Positions 8,289-45,018 of a stretch of 64,000 nucleotides of DNA are shown here, piece by piece. Source of the DNA: Demequina aurantiaca (GTDB lineage: Bacteria > Actinomycetota > Actinomycetes > Actinomycetales > Demequinaceae); contig NZ_BBRF01000003.1 in NCBI RefSeq assembly GCF_000975135.1, positions 186,001 to 250,000 on the forward strand, in the 5' to 3' direction. A program made the position numbers and the translations under genes. Positions within the stretch are counted from its first letter, which is position 1. Each line of letters begins with the position of its first letter. The notes beneath the pieces are model-generated. The model worked only from the letters and a program-made list of their open reading frames with translations. It did not search any database and was not told the origin of the DNA.

Positions 8289-8918
8289 TTACTTCTTGCC
8301 CATCTGATCTATCACCGCTTCTGCCACTTCTTTCATGGTCAGGCGGCGGTCCATCGACGTCTTTTGGATCCACCGGAAGGACTCAGGCTCATTGAGCTTC
8401 ATGGTCTCCATCAGCAGTCCCTTGGCACGCTCAACGAGCTTGCGTGTCTGCATGCGCTCGTTGATGTCCGCGATCTCGTTCTCGAGAGCGCGGATCTCCA
8501 CGAACCTCGAGGCAGCGATCTCCACGGCGGGCAGGAGGTCAGCCGGGGTGAAGGGCTTCACCACGTAGGCCATAGCACCTGCGTCCCGGGCACGCTCGAC
8601 TAGTTCAGTCTGCGAGAACGCGGTGAGCAACACGACCGGCGCCAAGCGCTCTTGAGCGATGTGCTCAGCGGCAGTGATGCCATCCATGACGGGCATCTTG
8701 ATGTCCATCACGATGACGTCAGGCTTGAGCTCCTTGGCGAGGGCCACGGCTTCTTCGCCATTGGCCGCCTCGCCTACGACGTCGTATCCTCCTTCGCGGA
8801 GGGTCTCGACGATGTCCATACGGATCAGGGCTTCGTCCTCGGCCACGATGGCACGGCGCTTCTTAGCGCCAGTCGTAGCGGCGGATTCTTGAGTGTTGTT
8901 GTCAGAAGTTTCGGTCAC
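8289..8918 (-). CDS. pdtaR: ANTAR-domain response regulator (PdtaR type)
   Basis: A 209-residue two-component regulator that acts on RNA. The receiver domain (about 23-135) has the acidic pair E27/D28, phosphoacceptor D72, T99 and K121. The ANTAR domain follows (about 145-206) with RKLVERAKGLLM and ESFRWIQKTSMDRRLTM, the RNA-binding surface that recognises paired stem-loops and relieves transcription termination. GTG at 8918 is chosen because TAGGCT (8931-8926) lies 7 bases upstream; a longer frame to 8954 would run into the tRNA gene. livK lies next downstream. No cognate kinase is present in the window. The regulator-liv-polA neighbourhood is typical of actinobacteria. Confidence 0.92.
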   Translation of the reverse strand: MTETSDNNTQESAATTGAKKRRAIVAEDEALIRMDIVETLREGGYDVVGEAANGEEAVALAKELKPDVIVMDIKMPVMDGITAAEHIAQERLAPVVLLTAFSQTELVERARDAGAMAYVVKPFTPADLLPAVEIAASRFVEIRALENEIADINERMQTRKLVERAKGLLMETMKLNEPESFRWIQKTSMDRRLTMKEVAEAVIDQMGKK

Positions 8919-8939
8919 AAGCGCTAGCCTAGTGTGCGC

Positions 8940-9013
8940 GCCCCGATAGCCCAACTGGCAGAGGCATACGGCTCAAACCCGTACCAGTGTGGGTTCGAAT
9001 CCCACTCGGGGCA
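8940..9013 (+). tRNA. tRNA, anticodon CAA (Leu by anticodon, class I shape)
   Basis: All four arms pair: acceptor GCCCCGA with TCGGGGC (7 pairs), anticodon stem TACGG with CCGTA around CTCAAAC, T-arm GTGGG-TTCGAAT-CCCAC, and a D-arm with GG in the loop. The anticodon at 8974-8976 is CAA, which reads Leu UUG codons. The discriminator base is A. The variable region is only about five bases (CCAGT), whereas Leu tRNAs normally have a long variable arm. The 3' CA is encoded, not the full CCA. The gene is divergent from the ANTAR regulator. Confidence 0.85.
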
Positions 9014-9038
9014 CATGGCGTGAGTTTGACGCTTGAGA

Positions 9039-9083
9039 GGCCCGTTCGCCGGAGGCACTTGCCACCAGCGAACGGGCCTTTCG
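9039..9083 (+). terminator. Terminator after the CAA tRNA
   Basis: A perfect 11-base stem (9039-9049 with 9068-9078) with an 18-base loop, followed by TTTCGTGTCT. It lies 25 bases past the tRNA. Confidence 0.75.
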
Positions 9084-9145: not shown

Positions 9146-9619
9146 ATGGTCAAATCAAATGCGAAGCGCACGAACGACACCAAGCGCCACATCGCCCTCG
9201 TGGCCCACGACAACAAGAAGGTTGACCTGCTCGAGTGGGCGGGATTTAACGTTGGCACGCTGTCGCAGCATCACATCTACGCCACCGGAACCACGGGCAC
9301 GATGCTGGAGTACGAGTTGGGCCTCAAGGTCACCCGTTTTCTCTCCGGGCCAGTCGGTGGCGACCAGCAGATCGGCGCGAAAATCGCAGAGGGAGGCATC
9401 GACACCCTGTTCTTCTTCTGGGATCCACTAGAGGCCCAGCCACACGACCCCGACGTCAAAGCCCTGCTTCGCATCGGCGCAGTGTGGAACATCCCCATGG
9501 CCTCAAACATGGCCACCGCGGACTTTCTCATCTCGTCACCGCTGTTCGGCGAACCGTACGACCGCACGGTCCCTGATCTAGGTGACCGTGACTGGTCGGC
9601 GATGCGCACGTCGGACTGA
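9146..9619 (+). CDS. mgsA: Methylglyoxal synthase
   Basis: A 157-residue cytoplasmic lyase that converts dihydroxyacetone phosphate to methylglyoxal and phosphate, a bypass when phosphate or triose phosphate metabolism is unbalanced. The family motifs are clear: AHDNKK (20-25), the phosphate loop ATGTTG (46-51), SGPVGGDQQIGA (67-78) with catalytic Asp73, and FFFWDPLEAQPHDPDVKALL (89-108). The length is normal. ATG at 9146 has no Shine-Dalgarno; GATACT lies 6 bases before it and could be a leaderless -10. A single gene flanked by the tRNA terminator and the P19-like gene. Confidence 0.93.
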   Translation: MVKSNAKRTNDTKRHIALVAHDNKKVDLLEWAGFNVGTLSQHHIYATGTTGTMLEYELGLKVTRFLSGPVGGDQQIGAKIAEGGIDTLFFFWDPLEAQPHDPDVKALLRIGAVWNIPMASNMATADFLISSPLFGEPYDRTVPDLGDRDWSAMRTSD

Positions 9620-44931: not shown

Positions 44932-45018
44932 TGGTGTCCGAGGGGGGACTTGAACCCCCACGCCCTTGCGGGCACTAGCACCTCAAGCTAGCGCGTCTGC
45001 CAATTCCGCCACCCGGAC
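44932..45018 (-). tRNA. tRNA-Leu, anticodon GAG
   Basis: An 87-base class II tRNA with encoded CCA. The acceptor begins GTCCGGG, the anticodon stem is CTAGC/GCTAG around TTGAGGT (anticodon GAG, codons CUC and CUU), the long variable arm reads TGCCCGCAAGGGCG, and the T-loop is TTCAAGT. All features agree with leucine. Confidence 0.97.

Follow-up and report, generated by a model that had tools for sequence, protein, structure and literature searches.

The tRNA gene at positions 8940-9013 of the window, the stretch of 64,000 nucleotides analysed here (positions 186001-250000 of contig C4, in a genome of 2.57 Mb that comprises six contigs and is 99.9% complete), very probably encodes a leucine tRNA whose structure is odd but whose function is ordinary; the one bacterial LeuRS of the cell would charge it with leucine, and it would read UUG in general translation without a long variable arm. 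Textbooks ascribe such an arm to leucine tRNAs. The short-armed variant is widespread in Actinomycetota and in phages; what surprises more is that the short and long forms are exchanged for each other at one locus. A genome that reads all UUR codons with short-armed tRNAs is a natural test of the arm-independence of the E. coli LeuRS, and because the class switches at a single locus, the way in which a core tRNA evolves, and may be transferred, is open to direct test. Programs that expect leucine tRNAs to be of class II may also mislabel short-armed leucine genes.

Structure of the tRNA

ARAGORN calls a tRNA-Leu(caa) at 8940-9014 on the forward strand, and the Rfam tRNA model aligns to 8940-9013 with 57.5 bits (E = 8.8e-10; gathering cut-off 29). 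All 12 pairs of the acceptor and T-stem are formed, and the fold is 2.2 standard deviations better than those of dinucleotide shuffles, two of 200 of which equal it. CCA is not encoded in the gene, the triplet directly 3' of it being CAT. Within the variable loop, U48 pairs with A15 (trans-Levitt). A sequence-only reading of the window had described a perfect cloverleaf with anticodon CAA, A73 and only five variable bases, and ARAGORN, the Rfam model and the stem pairs confirm this description. The covariance model, which was consulted for additional bases in the variable arm, places five only, ruling out any further ones, and this is short of the ten nucleotides or more by which class II was recognised. 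The same reading had contrasted the gene with a class II leucine tRNA elsewhere in the window (44932-45018, reverse strand), and this is indeed a class II Leu(GAG). The features of the locus are collected in Table 1.

Table 1. Positions in the window of the tRNA, its defining elements and its neighbours
Feature	Position	Strand	Basis
Class I tRNA-Leu(CAA), 74 nt without CCA	8940-9013	+	ARAGORN, Rfam model, numbering
D loop AACTGGCAG = A14 A15 C16 U17 G18 G19 C20 A20a G21	8953-8961	+	Numbering
Anticodon CAA (34-36)	8974-8976	+	ARAGORN, Rfam model
Variable loop CCAGT (44-48)	8984-8988	+	Numbering
Discriminator A73	9013	+	Rfam alignment, numbering
pdtaR-like response regulator, receiver and ANTAR domains, 209 aa, GTG start	8289-8918	-	Domain match, conserved neighbour
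TAGCCTA, candidate shared -10 (TAGGCTA read on -)	8925-8931	.	Both directions; near-symmetric
Strong hairpin 3' of the tRNA, only a short T run	9034-9083	+	-40.8 kcal/mol, z -6.7
Methylglyoxal-synthase-like protein (Pfam MGS), neighbour	9146-9619	+	Pfam

Leucine identity

In E. coli, leucylation depends on A73, A15-U48, G18G19 and A20a and not on the long arm, and armless variants of tRNA-Leu remain active, according to section 12 of the review PMC9976931. The tRNA-Leu(CAA) of this genome carries A73, A15-U48, G18G19 and A20a, the complete E. coli leucine set. Because bacterial LeuRS reads A73 and the corner of the D loop and T loop (A15-U48, G18G19, A20a), and not the arm, the tRNA would be able to work without an arm. 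One LeuRS gene, with a frame of 837 residues, exceeds the TIGR00396 cut-off, all other matches in the genome lying below it.

The elements A14, A15-U48, A20a, G21, A22 and A73 are common to all five leucine tRNAs of the genome, short or long. A filter for A14, A15-U48, A20a and A73, applied to its 45 distinct tRNAs, retains these five and Arg(TCT), which passes because the script misplaced GG in its D loop, and in which position 21 is A and the 13-22 pair is normal; adding G21 leaves the five leucine tRNAs only. G21 and a mismatch at 13.22 are found in Cys(GCA) as well, but there together with G15-C48 and U73. Across 100 distinct leucine tRNAs (76 of class I and 24 of class II), A73 is invariant and A15-U48 is present in 98, with G15-C48 in the other two, and positions 15 and 48 co-vary across the phylum, such that A-U to G-C is a paired change. 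The G15-C48 pair, accompanied by a shortened D loop, occurs in the class I leucine tRNAs of seven loci outside the own genus (L115, L116, L281, L282, L284, L289 and L298), hence A15-U48 is not absolute.

The meaning of the cognate codon was read from the 49 UUG codons of pdtaR, MGS and pyk in 29 own-genus loci, leaving a codon's own sites out of its columns; these codons fall in only 30 columns, and are therefore not independent. Leucine makes up 79.6% of the UUG columns and outnumbers every other residue at 45 of the 49 sites, so UUG means leucine, and a reassigned UUG is rejected. The leucine share in comparison columns was 67.6% for CUG, 72.0% for CUC, 78.3% for CUU, 26.6% for UUC and 56.3% for AUG, the last being high because the codon's own sites are left out. 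The sole separation of UUG from methionine in this test is that its columns hold 5.4% Met. The own-genus test covers UUG, there being no usable UUA codon in these loci; over all loci, leucine makes up 63.6% of the columns for UUG and 45.0% for UUA, the latter from nine codons only.

The UUR-reading set of the genome

All 46 tRNA genes found in the genome were read for class. Five are leucine tRNAs, of which CAG, GAG and UAG belong to class II, and CAA and UAA to class I. The second class I gene, a Leu(UAA) of 74 nt at 1269386-1269459 of contig C6, is the only UUA reader of the genome. None of the 46 is a class II tRNA reading UUR, which disposes of a further CAA gene of class II, and UUG would be read by the CAA tRNA and could also, through wobble, be read by the UAA tRNA, both short-armed. 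As no class II gene reads UUR, these two constitute the complete UUR set, and the short form is what the genome ordinarily uses for these codons, not an extra. UUG accounts for 8.6% of the leucine codons of the window (148/1712, from a set that includes some spurious ORFs). UUA is very rare in the long ORFs of the window, at 17/1712 leucine codons, counted in the same partly spurious set.

The sequence-only reading had offered three options for the gene. That of a non-standard leucine tRNA is supported by the identity elements, the codon evidence, the single LeuRS and the lack of any class II UUR tRNA among the 46, with the qualification that the short arm is real and yet not peculiar to this gene, given the second class I tRNA with anticodon UAA. 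That of an identity other than leucine finds no support, as the identity elements are those of leucine and UUG falls in leucine columns. Expression of the gene, its charging and its use on the ribosome are predictions.

Distribution and core of the short form

Of the 59 genomes searched in the genus and order, 53 have DNA matching the tRNA, in some cases as short pieces only. In a sample of 296 genomes from across the phylum, 31 matched a strict pattern for class I CAA, 77 a looser class I pattern (CAA, plus TAA via one mismatch) and at least 223 a class II UUR pattern; the patterns are strict, so a genome without a match is no proof of absence. Class I leucine tRNAs were present in 29 of the 30 loci fetched from the strict CAA search, the remaining one (L118) being a chance match without a leucine tRNA, and in 20/20 TAA loci fetched from the looser search. 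The combinations differ between lineages. Among the matches listed, both UUR tRNAs are short in 6/6 sampled genomes of f22/g27, as in the own genome, TAA is short and CAA long in f68, and both are long in G084. The genomes of genus g26, which is probably Streptomyces, measure 6 to 10 Mb where matched by the strict CAA pattern and have a bldA-like class II TAA tRNA, and their CAA tRNA is short in five sampled members and long in two, again among the matches listed. Class I CAA genes occur in Nonomuraea gerenzanensis and Tsukamurella tyrosinosolvens, class I TAA genes in Nocardia farcinica and on a Curtobacterium plasmid, and a class II CAA gene on a Bifidobacterium longum plasmid. Within the own genus, the 29 loci (leaving out L103, a duplicate of L033) hold 13 distinct sequences, with pairwise identities of 0.81-1.00 and a median of 0.96.

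The two classes differ in their cores as well as their arms. Among the 100 distinct tRNAs, C12-G23 and C13.A22 are found in 76/76 of class I, and G12-C23 in 24/24 of class II, in which position 13 is G in 22 and A in two; position 9 is A in 73 of the 76, and G in all 24. These counts are partly built in, because the class I CAA pattern fixed A20a to G23, the looser class I pattern fixed GGNAGA with one mismatch allowed, and the class II UUR pattern fixed AGAC, such that A20a, G21 and A22 were partly built into all three; G23 was free in the looser class I pattern and in the BLAST-found set from the own genus and order. The class I body thus has a compact core of its own (A9, C12-G23, C13.A22 and a loop mostly ending in AGU) where class II has G9, G12-C23, mostly G13.A22, and an arm.

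Relation to known leucine tRNAs

Bacterial class II tRNA-Leu, as in E. coli and the Streptomyces bldA tRNA-Leu(UAA), shares with tRNA-Leu(CAA) the elements A73, A14, A15-U48, G18G19, A20a and G21-A22, likeness being judged on the class II leucine tRNAs of the own genome and phylum; it differs in its long arm, and in having G9, G12-C23 and mostly G13 where the short form has A9, C12-G23 and C13. The tRNA-Leu(UUR) of animal mitochondria likewise lacks the long arm and reads UUR, whereas the gene described here is on a bacterial chromosome and encodes a full cloverleaf. The parts of PMC9976931 that deal with these tRNAs give the long-armed tRNA-Leu as the rule, name animal mitochondria as the exception, and rest the identity of the human mitochondrial tRNA-Leu(UUR) on A73 and A14. 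A short variable loop is also recorded in an actinobacterium, in the tRNA-Leu(TAG) of a mycobacterial tRNA cluster described in a portion of PMC6582537; this is an extra copy beside a normal isoacceptor, whereas tRNA-Leu(CAA) here is the only gene with its anticodon. PMC4932002 lists Streptomyces CAA genes, the word "variable" being absent from its text, and Actinobacteria are not mentioned in PMC7609411, a review of odd tRNAs. In the open-access library searched, no paper was found that treats tRNA-Leu of class I as standard in Actinomycetota; curators may well know of it.

Short-armed leucine tRNAs in phages

A class I leucine pattern matched 118 of 50,697 phage records. Each of the 12 records that were opened, from phages named after Mycobacterium, Streptomyces, Gordonia, Erwinia, Salmonella, Enterobacter, Escherichia, Pseudomonas and Enterococcus and from a cyanophage, holds a short-armed leucine tRNA with anticodon CAA, TAA or TAG; the numbering is imperfect for L183, L188 and L190, as are the bounds or stems predicted there. 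Those in L183-L188 and L191 belong to phages of Gram-negative hosts, Enterococcus and Prochlorococcus. The tRNAs of Erwinia phage phiEa104, Escherichia phage LinBro and Mycobacterium phage Kykar have the same core and loop type as tRNA-Leu(CAA), and a CAA or TAA anticodon, with TAG in other phages. They differ in being phage-borne, and in occurring in phages of E. coli, a species in which blastn (E 1e-3) found no match to a class I leucine tRNA in 20,395 records.

In IMG/VR, a class I leucine pattern matched 68 stretches (L192-L259), in 61 of which ARAGORN calls leucine tRNAs. The 61 distinct short-loop leucine tRNAs have A73 in 59 and A15-U48 in 56 cases, with the proviso that the gene which the pattern matched in a stretch had to have U48 and A20a to be matched at all. 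The cores of these tRNAs are more varied, with C12-G23 in 34 cases and the class II pair G12-C23 in 19. As the latter combine a short loop with a class II pair, intermediates between the classes exist in phages.

The pdtaR neighbourhood

The pdtaR gene is divergent from the tRNA, its GTG start at 8918 lying 21 bases away and 6 nt from the TAGCCTA element. The arrangement CAC-N4..8-TAGCCTA recurs in 23 of 29 own-genus loci, with a spacing of N6 in 22. We infer that this element serves as a bidirectional -10 shared by the tRNA and pdtaR, the latter being leaderless; a sigma-70 scan found no consensus promoter. The hairpin 3' of the tRNA is a possible intrinsic terminator on its predicted stability, and was not reported by a terminator scan.

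Homologues of PdtaR were sought by tblastn (E 1e-8, 48-100% identity, with a fetched flank of mostly 1.5 kb), and 66 of 69 class I CAA genes, including 29 of the own genus, proved to have one nearby, the linked loci spanning 17 family codes and two named records. No homologue adjoins any of 12 TAA genes. Among 20 picked class II CAA genes, pdtaR lies no more than about 2 kb away in 16 (E 1e-5), and pyk is there too in seven of these. The presence of pdtaR beside CAA genes of both classes therefore marks an orthologous locus, and short and long genes mostly occupy this one place. The suggestion that the neighbouring ANTAR regulator might be significant holds insofar as the ANTAR domain is real and the linkage conserved, but a special tie of pdtaR to the short form is ruled out by its linkage to the class II genes. 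As far as the evidence goes, pdtaR is no part of the tRNA's function.

Three other accounts of the gene itself can be weighed against a leucine tRNA of general translation. The least credible, to the point of being negligible, is that of a pseudogene or prediction artefact, which has nothing in its favour except the unusual class, and is rejected on the intact acceptor and T-stem pairs, the retention of the tRNA in 29 own-genus loci, and the change of positions 15 and 48 as a pair in relatives. Very improbable too is descent from a Met tRNA through a mutated anticodon: the class I shape, a C34-A35 as in Met, a human precedent in the part of PMC8450103 concerned with it, and a leucine share in AUG columns near that in UUG columns (56.3% against 79.6%) would suit such an origin, but the core is not Met-like, with a D loop, A15-U48 and A20a matching those of the other four leucine tRNAs, the three Met(CAU) tRNAs have G15-C48 and none matches tRNA-Leu(CAA), Met is scarce in the UUG columns, and the same core carries a UAA anticodon and, in phages, UAG. 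A main role outside translation, linked to the neighbouring PdtaR, was the third option of the sequence-only reading and is unlikely, if a little less so; the conserved neighbour of the class I CAA loci and the -10-like element common to the tRNA and pdtaR in the genus could be taken as signs of it, but this neighbour also adjoins class II CAA genes and is missing beside TAA genes, and UUG has no other reader than the class I UAA tRNA by wobble. Since UUR codons have no reader apart from the CAA tRNA and its equally short UAA counterpart, the genome gives no support for a main role other than translation.

Changes of class at the CAA locus

On a tree of PdtaR, the class of the linked tRNA changes at least 10 times, six of these changes being forced by well-supported branches. 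This tree was built by a quick method, with long branches flagged, from 58 of 82 usable rows (42 class I and 16 class II, the own genus being cut to six). Shuffled labels gave 14.2 changes on average, and at most 1/500 shuffles had as few as 10, meaning class is clustered on the PdtaR tree, yet by no means the product of one change. A second tree, of 101 tRNAs (own genus cut) and built from 49 columns outside the class-defining ones, showed five changes, against 22.5 with shuffled labels. The comparison of five changes on the tRNA tree with 10 on the PdtaR tree leans towards exchange of the whole tRNA body, with the qualification that the two trees have different row sets and that the tRNA alignment, besides being short, may still contain class-linked structure.

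The g26 genomes offer a closer view. This sample comprises 81 genomes, 60 with an upstream stretch, the best 30 loci of which (L280-L309) hold 22 distinct CAA tRNAs, with 26 loci of class I and four of class II. In 320 of the 435 pairs formed by these best 30 of 60 loci, identity is higher in the upstream DNA than in the tRNA, although the choice of the loci by upstream similarity favours this result. Of the 34 pairs with upstream identity of at least 0.9, 16 have a tRNA identity below 0.8, the lowest being 0.55, and across four g26 genomes the TAA genes are 0.93-0.99 alike and the CAA genes 0.74-1.00. Hence tRNA-Leu(CAA) is hypervariable at a fixed locus in g26, in both classes, the own genus being quieter.

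Two explanations of this variation carry similar, and in each case limited, conviction. We tentatively suggest that the pdtaR-linked CAA locus may be a replacement hot spot, at which the tRNA body, and not the promoter or the neighbours, is repeatedly exchanged between class I and class II, with mobile class I genes resembling those of phages and integrative elements as donors; the pressure behind such exchange is perhaps that of tRNA-targeting toxins or of element integration. The short form might equally arise in place by stepwise loss, and regain, of the arm. The viral intermediates with a short loop and G12-C23 fit such gradual change, as does the equal distance of class I CAA genes from class I TAA (66.2%) and class II CAA (66.1%) outside the class-defining columns; set against it are the complete alternative core (12-23 and 13.22) in 76/76 class I genes, with no intermediate, and the smaller number of class changes on the tRNA tree, subject to the differences in rows and the short alignment noted above. 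Were the locus a replacement hot spot, a gene at the core of translation would be changing its structural class inside a single genus.

Two observations concern the DNA directly 3' of the tRNA. In Tsukamurella, a site-specific integrase gene directly follows the class I Leu(CAA) (L177, 1501-1574), which is possibly an attachment site, making integration at this tRNA one possible route. In four g26 loci (L113-L116), a CCTT...AAGG motif lies directly 3' of the tRNA, forming a perfect small hairpin in L115.
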